The translations under genes were made by a program, and so were the position numbers. This document shows positions 212 to 25,835 of a stretch of DNA of 34,638 bases, in pieces. Source of the stretch: Malonomonas rubra. GTDB lineage: Bacteria > Desulfobacterota > Desulfuromonadia > Desulfuromonadales > Geopsychrobacteraceae. The notes beneath the pieces are model-generated. The model was not told the origin of the DNA. It searched no databases and was given only the letters and a program-made list of their open reading frames with translations. The stretch lies in assembly GCF_003247215.1 (NCBI RefSeq), contig NZ_QKAP01000123.1:1-34638 (forward strand). The letters are read 5' to 3'. Numbering within the stretch: position 1 is the stretch's first letter; the number at the start of each line of letters is the position of its first letter.

Positions 212-557
212 ACAATAAGGAGGAGAAAGCTTGGTACTCGTTCCCTCTTTGCGGTAGCTTCCAACGATACTAAAAATCATTTTTCGCCCCCCTTTTATTG
301 GTACGTGACCCATTGTACATATACTGTGGTTGTTCACATTCAATCTCATAATTCGTGAGTTTAGGCCCAAGTATAGATCCGGCCTCTTATAGGTGATTCT
401 GAAAATAATGGGAGTTGGTCTCTCCAAATACTCACGGCCCTAAAATATATTTATGTAGTATTACACTGATATGGCCCACGCTTATTGTTTGAAGCCATAA
501 AAATCCCTCCACGAAACACTGCGAGTGTCCCAAATGTGGATTTTGTGCAAGACGAGA
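212..557. other. Gene-poor stretch between mgsA and tRNA-Sec
   Basis: About 345 bases without a supportable gene. An AAGGAGGAG sequence at about 217-226 looks like a strong ribosome binding site, but the following TTG frame stops after eight codons. Short open frames on both strands show no recognisable protein. I see no convincing intrinsic terminator for mgsA here. The stretch could be untranslated trailer or gene remnant; nothing more can be supported. Confidence 0.5.
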
Positions 558-601
558 AAAAATCAAAGGGCCACAGCAAAAGCCATAACCCTTTGATTTT
601 T
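558..601 (-). terminator. Intrinsic terminator downstream of tRNA-Sec
   Basis: A perfect 13-bp inverted repeat pairs AAAAATCAAAGGG at 558-570 with CCCTTTGATTTTT at 589-601, around an 18-base loop. Read on the minus strand it begins seven bases after the CCA end of the tRNA-Sec gene and ends in a run of T. It fits a factor-independent terminator of the selC transcript. The A/T-rich base of the stem would also allow some function in the opposite direction. Confidence 0.75.
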
Positions 602-607
602 CAATAT

Positions 608-703
608 TGGCGGAGGCAGATGGGAATCGAACCCACCCGGGACGGGATACGCCCCACATCGGTTTTGAAGACCGTGAGCATCACCAGAACGCTAACTGCC
701 TCC
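608..703 (-). tRNA. selC: Selenocysteine tRNA, anticodon UCA, CCA encoded
   Basis: Read on the minus strand this is a 96-base tRNA beginning GGAGGCAG and ending CTGCCTCC plus GCCA. The acceptor arm is therefore the eight base pairs of bacterial tRNA-Sec, not seven. The anticodon loop is CTTCAAA, giving UCA, which reads UGA codons. There is a long variable arm, and GGTTCGATTCC forms the T arm. It delivers selenocysteine with SelB after charging by SerRS and conversion by SelA. No selA, selB or selD lies in the window and I found no convincing in-frame Sec UGA in the genes here, so the tRNA must serve genes elsewhere. Confidence 0.96.
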
Positions 704-20078: not shown

Positions 20079-22733
20079 CTACTTGCCCATCAAGTTGAGT
20101 AAAACATGGTTGAGTATACCGCCACTTTGGAAGTACGCAACCTCCTGATCTGTATCTAATCGACTGTTAACCACTACTGTCTCGCAGCTACCGTCACTCC
20201 GGTTGACTTGAAGCAGCAACTCCTGCTTCGCTTGCAATTCGCCAAGTGCCGCCAGGCTAAAGGTTTCGCTACCATCAAGCTGCAACGTTTCGACTGTAAT
20301 GTCGGCCTTGAACTGCAATGGCAGAACTCCCATTCCGACTAGGTTGGAGCGGTGAATCCGCTCATAACTTTCGGCCAGCACCGCTTTTACGCCGAGCAGC
20401 AGCGTTCCTTTGGCAGCCCAATCGCGGCTGGAACCGGTACCGTACTCTTTGCCGGCGACAATCATCAACGGAGTCTCGGTCTGGGCATAGTGAACCGCAG
20501 CATCGAAAATGCTCATCTGTTCGCCATCCGGCATAAATTTGGTATACCCACCTTCCGTTCCGGGCACCATCTTGTTGCGCAAACGGATGTTGGCGAAGGT
20601 GCCACGCATCATGACCTCGTGGTTACCGCGGCGTGACCCGTAGGAATTGAAATCACGCTCTGCGACCCCCTTGTCATGTAGATAAACACCTGCCGGACTG
20701 CTCGCCTTGATCGCGCCAGCAGGCGAGATATGGTCGGTGGTGATGCTGTCACCGAGCAGTGCCAACAGTCGTGCCTGATGGAACCCACCGAACCCACTCT
20801 GCCGCTGCAACCGGGCGAAGAACGAGGGGTGACGGATATAGGTCGAATCTGGCTGCCACGCATAGGTCAATCCTTCCGGAACTGGCAGATTACGCCACTG
20901 CTCGTCCCCATCAAATACCGCTGCATATTCTTTATGGAACATCTGCTCGTTGACTAGGGAAACCATTTCGGCCACCTCAACGTTGCTCGGCCAGATATCC
21001 TTCAGGTAAACCGGGTTCCCGTCGCTACCAGTGCCAAGCTGTTCGCGGCTCAGGTCGATGCGAGTGGTCCCAGCCAGTGCATAGGCAACCACAAGCGGAG
21101 GGGAAGCAAGCCAATTGGCCTTAGTCTGCGCATGGATACGCCCCTCGAAGTTCCGGTTGCCGGAGAGGACCGAACAGACGGTCAAATCACCTTCATCGAT
21201 CGCTTCGGCGATTGGACCAGTCAGTGGCCCCGAGTTGCCGATACAGGTGGTGCAGCCGTAGCCGACCACGTTGAATCCGAGTTGATCGAGGTAGCTTTGC
21301 AGGCCGGCTTTGGCCAGATAATCAGTAACCACCTTGGAGCCGGGGGCCAGCGAGGTCTTGACCCAGGATTTCTGCTGCAGCCCTTTTTCCACCGCTTTCT
21401 TGGCCACCAGCCCGGCGGCCATCATCACTGCTGGGTTGGAGGTATTGGTGCAGGAGGTGATCGCGGCGATCACCACGTCACCATGCTTTAAATTCTCTCT
21501 GCTGCCTGCGATCGAGACCGATGCCGGAGACTCTTCCGGTAATACCTGTTCGGTGGCCGTGCGCAAATCTTCGAGCAAAACCCTATCCTGCGGTCGCTTC
21601 GGTCCTGCAAGACTCGGCTTGACACTGGTCAGGTCGAGTTCCAGCACGGCGCTGAACTGCGGATCAGGCAAATCGTCGCTACGCCAGAGTCCTTGCTCCT
21701 TGCAGTAGTCCTCTACCAAAGCGAGTGTTCGAGGCTCGCGGCCAGTCAGCTCCAGATAATCGAGAGTGATCTGATCGATCGGGAAGAACCCGCAGGTGGC
21801 ACCATACTCCGGAGCCATATTAGCGATGGTCGCCCGATCGGCAAGCGGCAACTGCGACAAACCGGTGCCGAAGAACTCGACAAACTTGCCGACAACCCCA
21901 TGTTCCCGGAGCATCTGGGTTACAGTCAGCACCAGATCGGTCGCGGTGACACCTTCACTCAAGCAGCCGGACAATCGAAAACCGACCACCTCCGGCACCA
22001 GCATCGAAATCGGCTGACCGAGCATTGCCGCTTCCGCTTCGATGCCGCCGACCCCCCAACCGAGGACGCCGAGCCCGTTGATCATGGTGGTGTGGCTGTC
22101 GGTACCGACCAAGGTATCGGGATAGGCCCAGACTTCCCCGTCGATTTCGTTTGTCCAGACAGACTTTGCCAGATACTCCAGGTTAACCTGATGACAGATC
22201 CCGGTTCCCGGCGGCACCACCCGAAAGTTGTCGAAAGCGGTCTGCCCCCAGCGCAAAAAGGTATAACGCTCACGGTTACGCTCCATCTCTTTTTCAACAT
22301 TGACCGAAAAAGCGGAAGGGTTGCCGTACTGATCGACCATCACCGAGTGATCGATAACCAAGTCGACCGGAATCTGCGGATTGATCTGCCCCGGATCCCC
22401 TCCATATTCGGCAACCGCGTCGCGCATCGCCGCCAGATCGACTATCGCCGGCACCCCTGTAAAATCCTGCATCAACACCCGGGCCGGGCTGAAAGAAATC
22501 TCGCTCTCTGATGCCTGCTGTGGCTGCCAGGCTGCAACCGCTTCAATGTCGGCACGGGTAACGGTTCTTCCGTCTTCTTTGCGCAGCAGGTTTTCCAGCA
22601 AAACCCTTATGGTAAAGGGAAGATGCTTCAGAGTCCCTAAGCCGTTGGCGGATGCTGCGGCTAGAGAATTGTAAAAATAACTACGATCGGATACCTGCAG
22701 GGTGCGGATCGATTGAAAGGTATCTTTTTTCAT
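20079..22733 (-). CDS. acnA: Aconitate hydratase A
   Basis: An 884-residue cytoplasmic [4Fe-4S] enzyme interconverting citrate and isocitrate in the TCA cycle, of the AcnA/IRP1 type. Family motifs include RVLMQDFTGVPAIVDLAAMRDA, VDLVIDHSVMVDQYG, WAYPDTLVGTDSHTTMINGLGVLGWGVGGIEAEAAM (given here in parts of the conserved run), and FFPIDQ. The cluster cysteines are in AAITSCTNTSNP and GYGCTTCIGNSGPL. The swivel domain contains GDSITTDHISPAG and GKEYGTGSSRDWAAKG. AGGAG precedes the ATG by six bases. It is full length with no lesion. The small SAP-like gene follows it. Confidence 0.97.
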   Translation of the reverse strand: MKKDTFQSIRTLQVSDRSYFYNSLAAASANGLGTLKHLPFTIRVLLENLLRKEDGRTVTRADIEAVAAWQPQQASESEISFSPARVLMQDFTGVPAIVDLAAMRDAVAEYGGDPGQINPQIPVDLVIDHSVMVDQYGNPSAFSVNVEKEMERNRERYTFLRWGQTAFDNFRVVPPGTGICHQVNLEYLAKSVWTNEIDGEVWAYPDTLVGTDSHTTMINGLGVLGWGVGGIEAEAAMLGQPISMLVPEVVGFRLSGCLSEGVTATDLVLTVTQMLREHGVVGKFVEFFGTGLSQLPLADRATIANMAPEYGATCGFFPIDQITLDYLELTGREPRTLALVEDYCKEQGLWRSDDLPDPQFSAVLELDLTSVKPSLAGPKRPQDRVLLEDLRTATEQVLPEESPASVSIAGSRENLKHGDVVIAAITSCTNTSNPAVMMAAGLVAKKAVEKGLQQKSWVKTSLAPGSKVVTDYLAKAGLQSYLDQLGFNVVGYGCTTCIGNSGPLTGPIAEAIDEGDLTVCSVLSGNRNFEGRIHAQTKANWLASPPLVVAYALAGTTRIDLSREQLGTGSDGNPVYLKDIWPSNVEVAEMVSLVNEQMFHKEYAAVFDGDEQWRNLPVPEGLTYAWQPDSTYIRHPSFFARLQRQSGFGGFHQARLLALLGDSITTDHISPAGAIKASSPAGVYLHDKGVAERDFNSYGSRRGNHEVMMRGTFANIRLRNKMVPGTEGGYTKFMPDGEQMSIFDAAVHYAQTETPLMIVAGKEYGTGSSRDWAAKGTLLLGVKAVLAESYERIHRSNLVGMGVLPLQFKADITVETLQLDGSETFSLAALGELQAKQELLLQVNRSDGSCETVVVNSRLDTDQEVAYFQSGGILNHVLLNLMGK

Positions 22734-23047: not shown

Positions 23048-23248
23048 ATGGCAGAAGGTACTGTTAAGTGGTTTAACGATGCAAAAGGTTTCGGTTTTAT
23101 TGAGCAGGAAAATGGCCCTGACGTGTTTGTCCATTTCTCTGCAATTCAATCTGAAGGGTTCAAATCTCTTTCCGAAGGCGATCGGGTGACTTTTGATGTG
23201 ATTCAGGGGGATAAAGGTCCACAATCCTCCAATGTGGTTAAAGTTTAA
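23048..23248 (+). CDS. Cold-shock protein, CspA family
   Basis: A 66-residue single-stranded RNA/DNA-binding protein made of one cold-shock domain. It has the RNP1 motif KGFGFIEQ and RNP2-type VFVHFSAI, with the opening [15 protein letters not shown] typical of the family. It melts RNA structure and may act as a transcription antiterminator. The ATG follows AGGAGAGGAAGC. A strong terminator closes the gene, which stands alone. Confidence 0.96.
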
Positions 23249-23312
23249 AGCAAACAATTCTACCGATCCGGCTAACATTCGATCGGTTTGATTTCTTAGA
23301 GGGCGCATCCAC

Positions 23313-23348
23313 AAAAAAGCTCCACGGCTTAAACCGTGGAGCTTTTTT
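23313..23348 (+). terminator. Intrinsic terminator of the cold-shock gene
   Basis: A 15-bp perfect stem (AAAAAAGCTCCACGG with CCGTGGAGCTTTTTT) around a 6-base loop, ending in T. It could also stop minus-strand transcription, but the decayed gene ends just upstream of it on that strand. Confidence 0.9.
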
Positions 23349-23361
23349 GTTTTTATCCCTA

Positions 23362-25041
23362 CTAACCACTGACTATGTCAATGCTTGTAGATAACATCCC
23401 GAGCGAGTGCTCCATCAAAATCCGCCACTCGCCATCTTCTTTGATCAAGTTGATCGACTTGAGGATCTGATCCTGATAGAAATCTGGACTATACCTCTGC
23501 TTCAGTTTCACCTGTATCCGATTTTCGCAAACTTGGCGCACCTGAATGTCGTCGAACTTCAGCTAGATTCCCTTCGGCCGAGTCACCCGGGTGCGGCGTA
23601 TTTCCCGCCAATCTTCTTGGCTGCGTCCGAGTTCTGGACGATATTGTTCACTGTACGCGGAAAAATACCCGCTTAAATCCTGCTGCGCAAAGCCAAGTAC
23701 AGCTTTGACCTTTTCCATCGGAATCGCTTCCGCGGCTGAAAATTAACTCCTGGCAGGCCACCATTCCTTCGCTTCCTCAGAGATCGGCTTAAACGCAACA
23801 TTTGTTGCTTTTTGAGTATCTTCTCTGGGGAATGGTTCTGTTGCCGCCGGTTGCGCCTACCCACCTTCTATCTGCTGCCTCGGCGGCTGCCCCGAGTGTC
23901 AAGAGGCAGATTTGATCAGTTCTTCATCTGCCTTCAACTTGGCCAGCAATTCATTGCTTGTTTGCTCGCTGTAGTAATAACCGTAACTGCCCGGCGACCA
24001 ATTCCCAGGCGACGTTGGCTTCCTCTTTTGCTTCTTCTACTTCCTGCTTTGTCAACGCCAACTGGCTGACCCACGCTGATCTTTTCATCCGCCTGATTGA
24101 GGTCGAAAAGGGCGTTGTCGAGCACCTGCTGCAAACTGTTTTTTTCCGCAACCGAGTGGCTGATATCGGCAATCATCCGTTCTGACAATTCATTGGCCGA
24201 TGAAGAGAAAACCTCTTCTTCATCTGAAAAAGCAGCCCTCTATTTTCCTTGTTCGGTCGTTAATCTGGGTAGACCTTCAATTTCATCAAAACCCTGCAGA
24301 TCTTCCAACAGTTCGTTAAACGATATGAAACGCTGCTCGACTGGCAGCAATAAGCGACCGAGCAGCCGATGGATATGGGGATCGCTGATCTTGTCACACT
24401 GTATCTCAAACGGTTTCTGCCGATCGTATTCAGGGCCAAGCAGCATCTGCAGCATCAGTTCACCCAAATTCCGCAACAAATTGGCATCCGTCGCTTGTTG
24501 GCTATTGCAATCCTCACCTGACCCATCAGTAAGAATCTGCTCGAGCGCACTATCAATACAAAAGCCTGTTAAAGCCGCCCGACCTTCAACATCAAAAAAA
24601 GATGGTCTCGCTATTTAACTGCTGCGGACTGAACCCCTTTTTAATAGGTATAATTAAAAGCATCAGCCAGCTCAAAGGTAATCTTCAGAGACTCCTCAGC
24701 CGGGAGGGGATAAGCATCTGCTTGACCAGATTATCACCGTTGTAGCTAGCGGAGGTGTAATAGAAACTGTTCTCTTCCAGACCAGAATCATAAATCGGTG
24801 CAATGGAAGGATGGTCAAGTTCTGCCAGCCTCTCGAAGAGTGCTTCGTGCTGTTCTTGCCTGTTTTTTTCCACCAAACGGTCGGCAGAAAAAATCTTCGG
24901 GGTAGCTTCTCAATTAAAAAAAGGATCTTCCGCGCAACAAACAAAAGCCGTGAGACTCGTTCGTCTCGAAAACGTCTTTTACGACATACAAGCCAACCTG
25001 TTGTCCTGATTCAATAATTGCAAATCTTGCTCATGGACCAT
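23362..25041 (-). pseudogene. Decayed multidomain gene: protein-kinase-like, coiled-coil and NTF2-like parts
   Basis: Pieces of one protein can be followed on the minus strand through several frames. The N-lobe-like part (MVHEQDLQLLNQDNR, VGLYVVKDVFETNESHGF, LAELDHPSIAPIYDSGLEEN) runs from 25041 to about 24700. The C-lobe-like part (LPAEESLKITFELADAFNYTY, EGRAALTGFCIDSALE, HIHRLLGRLLLPVEQRFISF) runs to 24243. A coiled coil follows (VAEKNSLQQVLDNALFDLNQADEKI, TKQEVEEAKEEANVAWELV). An NTF2-like tail (FAQQDLSGYFSAYSEQYRP, then QRYSPDFYQDQILKS and EDGEWRILMEHS) ends at the TAG at 23362-23364. Lesions include frameshifts near 24997, 24705, 24597 and 24070. Stops lie at 24910-24912, 24641-24643, 24611-24613, 24240-24242 and 23563-23565. 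The HRD and DFG motifs are already absent (GFC in place of DFG), so the ancestor may have been a pseudokinase. The function is lost or unknown. Confidence 0.8.
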
Positions 25042-25193: not shown

Positions 25194-25835
25194 TTACCTA
25201 GATTTATCAACTCCGATTCGCGGGCACAGATCCACGATCGGGCACTGGCTACAGACCGGTATTGGAGCTTTACAGCATGCACGTCCGTGAGCTATCAGCG
25301 TGTGCCCCACCTGGGTCCAGATTTCAGGTGGAAGGAGTTTGGTCAACTCTTTTTCGATCACCACCGGATTGTCCGCTTTGGTCCAACCGATCCGATTCGC
25401 CAGTCGTTTTACATGGGTATCCACTACCATCCCTGGGATCTGGTAGGCATTGCCGAGTACAACATTGGCGGTCTTACGCCCAACTCCCGCTAGAGCAACA
25501 AGCTCGTCCAAGGTTTCCGGTACCAGACCTTGATGACGCGTTAACACCTGTTCGGCGCAAAGAACCAGATTTTTGGCTTTATTGCGAAAAAATCCGGTAG
25601 AGCGGATCAACTCTTCGACCTGCTCCTGACTGGCGACAGCCATCTCCGCTGGCCCAGGCAGCTGCTCAAATAGGTCGACGGTGACCTGATTGACTCGCTT
25701 GTCGGTACACTGGGCGGAAAGGATCGTTGCTACCAAAAGCTGCCAGGCATTTTGGTACTCGAGGCCACATTTAGCGTTGGGGTACGCTGCCTCGAGCTGA
25801 CGATAAAGATTCAATGCCAAATCTTTTTTCTTCAT
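25194..25835 (-). CDS. nth: Endonuclease III, base-excision DNA glycosylase/AP lyase
   Basis: A 213-residue DNA repair enzyme removing oxidised pyrimidines. The N-terminal YQNAWQLLVATILSAQCTDKRVN is highly conserved. The helix-hairpin-helix LVALAGVGRKTANVVLGNA holds the catalytic Lys. The catalytic Asp is in VVDTHVKRLANRIG. The C-terminal [4Fe-4S] site has the C-x6-C-x2-C-x5-C spacing (from ACCKAPIPVCSQCPI to DLC). The ATG at 25835 has no clear ribosome binding site. The 53-base gap to the upstream gene holds two DnaA-box-like sites. Confidence 0.97.
   Translation of the reverse strand: MKKKDLALNLYRQLEAAYPNAKCGLEYQNAWQLLVATILSAQCTDKRVNQVTVDLFEQLPGPAEMAVASQEQVEELIRSTGFFRNKAKNLVLCAEQVLTRHQGLVPETLDELVALAGVGRKTANVVLGNAYQIPGMVVDTHVKRLANRIGWTKADNPVVIEKELTKLLPPEIWTQVGHTLIAHGRACCKAPIPVCSQCPIVDLCPRIGVDKSR

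Follow-up and report, generated by a model that had tools for sequence, protein, structure and literature searches.

The minus-strand stretch at 23362..25018 of the window, the 34,638 nucleotides of DNA analysed here, is almost certainly a pseudogene, the decayed orthologue of a family of probable membrane proteins that combine a pseudokinase with an NTF2 domain of the Csd6 type. It is identified as such by intact orthologues elsewhere, several inactivating lesions and intact neighbouring genes. The gene was probably the orphan partner of a wall-editing system that the window lineage has lost, a partnership that we infer from genomic patterns: the loss of a gene cluster, co-occurrence across genomes and a shared NTF2 domain.

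Between about 25018 and 23365, the minus strand carries fragments of the gene in three frames, which together make up one protein. With the stitched fragments as the homology query (X at most joins), the best relative (G007) matches at E 5.7e-81, and the matches other than the window itself are long relatives from the same genus and family. Frame-tolerant protein-to-DNA alignments of the window against each of three intact relatives (L035, L036 and L037) span the whole stretch as a continuous protein, with 276–308 identical positions. Six frameshifts interrupt it, near 24945, 24711, 24643, 24600–24615, 24065–24101 and 23986, all recovered with all three references. Six in-frame stops are also present: those at 24912, 23745 and 23565 stand opposite a residue in all three alignments; those at 24242, 23901 and 23859 do so in one alignment and lie within insertions in the remaining two. 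No start codon is left. One deletion of about 24 residues (~70 bases), out of frame, took the transmembrane helix, and another of about 28 residues (~84 bases) included helix 1 of the NTF2 domain. Reading the fragments as separate genes is ruled out, as the relatives encode the whole protein in one frame.

The remnants of each part can be placed on the minus strand. The pseudokinase remnant (24275..25018, inner border approximate) retains the beta-3 Lys, lacks HRD like the whole family and has lost DFG. The coiled-coil remnant (23987..24239), which corresponds to a long helix at residues 254–331 in the model of an intact orthologue, carries the frameshift near 24065–24101. The junction left by deletion of the transmembrane helix lies at 23986..23987, where all three alignments show a 23-residue gap and the frameshift at 23986. 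The Csd6-type NTF2 remnant (23365..23691) has helix 1 deleted at its start and one stop inside; its match to PF24125 (Cds6_C) at 23410–23688 scores 37.7 bits, above the cut-off of 27.

The original prediction had read these fragments as one decayed protein of roughly 550 residues that joined a pseudokinase-like domain, a coiled coil and an NTF2-like domain. Its unity and composition hold, the NTF2 part through the Pfam match and the other two through the intact family; the ancestor was longer, at 599–637 residues within the genus. The residues up to 25041 that had been counted in (MVHEQDL) are non-homologous and drop out, homology beginning near 25018, and the membrane helix went unseen because it is deleted from the window copy. 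Two seven-base A runs had been linked to frameshifts: the run at 24594–24600 lies at or near one, while that at 24916–24922 encodes a conserved FFN read in frame in all three alignments, with a stop just behind it. The lesions, together with the intact neighbours, bear out the argument for real decay.

Intact single-frame orthologues of 562–659 residues are found in eight of the nine genus mates and in 11 further genomes of the family; none was found in the ninth genus mate (G004), whose genome is 81% complete. Among the matches listed for an 18-member profile, full-length copies occur in 19 of 136 genomes of the order and head the list, and all 19 belong to one family. The named records of 15 full-length loci read Desulfuromonadales, Desulfuromonadaceae, Desulfuromonas, Desulfuromusa, Deltaproteobacteria and Malonomonas rubra DSM 5091; at nine of the 24 named loci the match covers the kinase part alone (to about query residue 201). 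A search for intact homologues next to nth or csp, as originally proposed, succeeds for both genes: nth adjoins the intact gene at 10 of the 19 loci and csp lies beside it at 12, including all eight of the genus. Within the genus nth is the neighbour at six of eight loci, the exceptions being L035, where the contig ends, and L041, where nth is absent. The acn gene follows within two genes at nine of 19 loci, several contigs ending before that point. In genus g5, the neighbours of two loci were identified as a sulfate permease with a DEAD helicase and an S1 protein with a TonB receptor; synteny is therefore not universal.

The window copy lies at the ancestral site, because it is flanked by nth and csp/acn as in its relatives. 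Upstream is intact nth (endonuclease III; 25194..25835, minus strand; Pfam HhH-GPD), the convergent neighbour is intact csp (cold-shock protein; 23048..23248, plus strand; Pfam CSD), and downstream is intact acn (aconitase; 20079..22733, minus strand), stop-free and with orthologues 74–85% identical in the five relatives used for comparison. A terminator-like hairpin (23311..23350, plus strand) separates csp from the decayed gene; it has a 17-pair stem and a T tail and is one of nine terminator-like sites found against 3.6 expected. A promoter scan gave two promoter-like sites, fewer than the 4.5 in shuffles.

Along the intact proteins of the family, the pseudokinase is followed by the coiled coil, a single hydrophobic helix, a linker that varies and, last, the Csd6-type NTF2 domain. 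Profile and fold both assign the first part to the Ser/Thr protein kinases. PF00069 matches 16 of 18 members at E 0.1 or better (best 9.1e-9), with scores below the curated cut-off in the two members for which a score is given (L036 and the genus mate M. rubra), and the fold of the intact M. rubra orthologue matches Staphylococcus aureus PknB (4eqm) with Z 22.4 and rmsd 2.7 over 230 residues, in a comparison list that covers mainly residues 5–246 of the model. HRD is present in none of the 19 intact orthologues; its Asp occurs in one, there without the catalytic-loop Asn. Sixteen of the 19 retain the beta-3 Lys, and the same number retain DFG. The set that marks an active kinase (HRD Asp, catalytic-loop Asn, beta-3 Lys and DFG together) is not found. 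Retention of Lys and DFG in most members makes nucleotide binding possible, and the absence of HRD means that canonical catalysis is not expected; as judged from sequence and model, the usual phosphate transfer would be impossible and the fold that of a pseudokinase. The ancestor had indeed been proposed as a regulatory pseudokinase with HRD and DFG already replaced. The pseudokinase assignment and the replacement of HRD stand; ancestral loss of DFG is rejected, since most intact orthologues keep the motif that the window copy has lost.

The hydrophobic helix aligns in all 19 intact relatives and is the top hydrophobic window in 17; in the other two, another segment is slightly more hydrophobic. 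Within the genus it is only moderately hydrophobic (best 19-residue Kyte-Doolittle mean 1.2–1.5). The intact protein is predicted with good confidence to span the inner membrane once, with the NTF2 domain outside. Taken together, sequence and model suggest that the ancestor probably had its pseudokinase and coiled coil in the cytosol, crossed the membrane once and carried an NTF2 domain of the Csd6/Pgp2/Bd1075 type in the periplasm. The full-length model of the M. rubra orthologue (pLDDT 71.8, pTM 0.43) contains the kinase fold, the long helix and an NTF2-like end; with this pTM, the relative placement of its domains is tentative.

The NTF2 domain would provide the link to the cell wall. PF24125 matches all 18 members at E 0.1 or better and scores above cut-off in all eight genus mates that have the gene. 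A run of the domain profile against all PDB sequences, with E values up to 1 allowed, matched only Bd1075 (4e-11), Pgp2 (6.8e-5) and Csd6 (1.4e-4). According to the available part of the source, the NTF2 domain of Pgp2 binds peptidoglycan and is required for helical shape (PMC8038945). That of Bd1075 is described, in the accessible text, as required for placement on the convex face and for curvature; in the same text, its authors know of no mechanism for this one-sided targeting (PMC8938487). By analogy with these distant relatives, the window-type NTF2 domain may bind peptidoglycan as well.

The same domain recurs in a gene cluster that the window genome no longer has. The window genome holds one Cds6_C match, the decayed gene, versus three to six per genome in the nine genus mates, where the other Cds6_C genes are mainly three clustered ones (on one contig in eight of nine, on two contig ends in G008). 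The four clusters read encode a membrane pseudokinase-TPR-NTF2 protein, a TPR-YkuD-NTF2 peptidase and an Lcl_C-NTF2 protein (705, 450 and 259 residues in the genus mate M. rubra). The argC gene adjoins the three clusters that reach that far (G003, G009 and G001); that of G007 breaks off within the pseudokinase. In the YkuD-like motif of the peptidase, His and Cys are retained, and Val stands where transpeptidases usually have Arg, a position that bears on the type of activity; the Val fits a carboxypeptidase. Near the place of HRD, as judged by eye, two of the three cluster pseudokinases read have GLW and one has GFW; one of the three, that of M. rubra, also has LLLL near the place of the beta-3 Lys and a hydrophobic span after the kinase domain. 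A 1235-residue frame in another family of the order (G063:C184) has both kinase-like and Cds6_C matches and is possibly a fused or duplicated form.

In the window genome, the site between queA and argC retains only a stump of the cluster pseudokinase (residues 1–140 of 705, in two frames). The other cluster genes are absent from this site, and the YkuD peptidase was not found anywhere in the window genome with a query that matches all nine genus mates. HD-GYP and GGDEF genes flank the cluster in M. rubra, G007 and G001, and HD-GYP alone does so in G009. Both are gone from the window genome's site (L083:11388–11578), and a search at E 1e-50 found no HD-GYP in that genome; a possible c-di-GMP module may thus have been lost along with the cluster.

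Co-occurrence points the same way. Of the 38 genomes of the order that have the peptidase, 19 carry an intact window-type gene among the matches listed; of the 98 that lack the peptidase, none does. Within the family the counts are 19 of 36 with the peptidase versus 0 of 8 without (P 0.006; 0.046 when the genus is left out), P values that carry no correction for descent and include many incomplete genomes. Since 19 of the 38 peptidase-bearing genomes lack the window-type gene, the cluster does not require it. The joint loss of both loci is one single case, in the window lineage. Cluster loss, a shared NTF2 domain and the decayed gene in the same genome suggest that both worked together, and a functional link between the window-type gene and the NTF2 cluster is slightly favoured.

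Under such a link, all partners would recognise or grip one common site on the wall through their NTF2 domains, and on the inner side the coiled coils and pseudokinase heads would form non-catalytic platforms that recruit cytosolic parts. Trimming of the wall by the peptidase would thereby be positioned in coordination with machinery of the cytosol. In the window lineage, the cluster would have been deleted to a stump first; the unlinked partner, then idle, would have decayed, with loss of the membrane helix and of the fold that binds the wall. A tentative proposal for the role of the gene is that it places or controls wall trimming. Doubtful, and offered as a speculation, is the fullest version, a cytosol-to-wall system of two membrane pseudokinases, a YkuD LD-peptidase and an Lcl_C protein, in which the shared NTF2 domain would find the site and the dead kinases would steer trimming without phosphorylation. 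If true, a GLW-type pseudokinase would gain a function, non-catalytic kinase folds would be tied to the placement of wall trimming, and the window genome would be a natural knock-out of the entire set.

Ordinary streamlining would explain the two losses differently: as selection relaxes, many accessory genes disappear, and each of the two NTF2 loci would have been lost on its own, with no functional link. It is the main rival because a second gene near the lost cluster is also broken, the CbiQ-type cobalt/energy-coupling transport gene by truA (L083:14990–15550, contig C122), which lies in two or more frames here and is intact in M. rubra (L078:16705–17466). The disappearance of the HD-GYP and GGDEF genes from beside the cluster and the size of the window genome (3.1 Mb versus 4.0 Mb in M. 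rubra) also fit it. The state of the surrounding genes can be judged from those M. rubra ORFs that match, at 45% identity or more, a counterpart in the 34.6-kb window contig and the 64.8-kb contig C122 (nine ORFs matching below 45% were left out). Here 58 of 72 are intact, or about 56 once one clear and one probable antisense frame are subtracted. Of the other 14, three are genuinely broken genes (the window gene, the stump and the CbiQ-type gene); the remaining 11 comprise an integrase remnant, a longer reference N-terminus, a contig end and eight antisense-like ORFs, seven with a longer frame on the other strand and the eighth opposite what we take to be a ribosomal protein gene. Some 56 sampled counterparts are therefore intact, yet each Cds6_C gene is lost or broken; it also speaks against streamlining that, among the matches listed, no peptidase-lacking genome of the order keeps the window-type gene. 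Independent loss is thus the less likely account, and the loss of a partner system is preferred. The integrase remnant (466–684, minus strand), short and like a phage-type integrase of M. rubra (L095:5739–6914), lies over tRNA-Sec (608–703) and suggests past integration at the selenocysteine tRNA.

A different function for the NTF2 domain is also conceivable. As a CaMKII-like assembly hub instead of a wall reader, it would make the pseudokinase multimeric and join the cluster proteins by NTF2 hetero-assembly. The CaMKII holoenzyme has the same order of kinase, linker and NTF2 hub and is the top Foldseek row for the whole model, CaMKII hubs are among the fold matches of the NTF2 domain, and four proteins with a common domain could co-assemble. 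That top row, however, comes with an rmsd of 32, at which the parts fail to overlay as a single body, and a hydrophobic helix separates kinase and NTF2 domain in the window-type family. Folded alone, the NTF2 domain reaches pLDDT 89 and has Bd1075 as its closest fold (rmsd 1.7), while Pgp2 and Csd6 come tenth and eleventh, after some unrelated NTF2 folds; its sole sequence relatives in the PDB are these three wall enzymes. Bd1075 is monomeric, although Csd6 and Pgp2 are called dimeric, in the available part of the paper (PMC8938487). The hub is accordingly an unlikely alternative to a wall-binding domain.

That an intact gene was misread or misassembled is scarcely credible. The A run at 24594–24600 could account for one frameshift, but 1.7 kb hold six frameshifts and as many stops, the start has gone, and two deletions removed about 70 and 84 bases; the neighbouring genes are intact, and the cluster stump represents independent decay elsewhere in the genome.

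The intact family is under purifying selection, with dN 0.04 against dS 0.17 and dN 0.055 against dS 0.26 in two close intact pairs (NG86). For the window copy against its relatives, dS is saturated (pS 0.75–0.80) and dN (0.29–0.35) is not above that of intact relatives at similar distance (0.30–0.36). The dN/dS check that had been proposed for the fragments is therefore uninformative, and neither dates nor proves relaxed selection. In a leave-one-out count of invariant columns, the window copy has 7 of 33 changed or missing versus 0–6 of 34–40 in intact relatives, a thin margin over the most divergent relative because three of the seven are deletion gaps and the window row has a misjoined N-terminus.

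Several known systems share parts of this architecture. A literature search that covered few subscription papers returned no paper combining pseudokinase, NTF2 and periplasmic. An NTF2 domain of like fold occurs in the S1C-NTF2 structure of RsgI9 (7sjy); RsgI is a membrane anti-sigma factor and, to our knowledge, RsgI9 has no kinase fold. The PASTA kinases PknB, StkP and Stk1 offer the nearest Ser/Thr kinase fold to the window-type family. In these proteins, a kinase in the cytosol is joined through a single membrane span to a domain that reads the wall outside; in contrast, the window-type family lacks HRD, carries NTF2 in place of PASTA and scores 40 against the NCBIfam PASTA-kinase model, whose cut-off is 450.

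Among bacterial pseudokinases, MviN and EssB/YukC are transmembrane proteins with non-catalytic roles, MviN acting in wall synthesis, according to the available part of one source (PMC12599244). The window-type family differs from them in its NTF2 domain, a term that appears nowhere in that paper. The same source gives GLW as the mark of a bacterial pseudokinase family and describes the functions of such families as unknown (PMC12599244). Members have GLW in place of HRD, LLLL/W at the beta-3 Lys and a membrane span after the kinase domain. The cluster gene is a candidate member, with GLW in two of three proteins and, in M. rubra, LLLL and a hydrophobic span after the kinase domain. The window-type gene was rejected as a member: GLW occurs in 0 of 19 orthologues, while 16 retain the beta-3 Lys and 16 retain DFG. 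For these pseudokinases, the shared wall domain, the wall-peptidase cluster and the joint loss point to a concrete, testable function.

A further likeness is to the LD-carboxypeptidases Csd6 of Helicobacter pylori, Pgp2 of Campylobacter jejuni and Bd1075 of Bdellovibrio bacteriovorus, which have a C-terminal NTF2 domain of the same family by both profile and fold. Their combination of YkuD and NTF2 is found again in the peptidase of the cluster. The window gene, in contrast to all of these, has no peptidase domain and carries a pseudokinase, a coiled coil and a hydrophobic helix instead.
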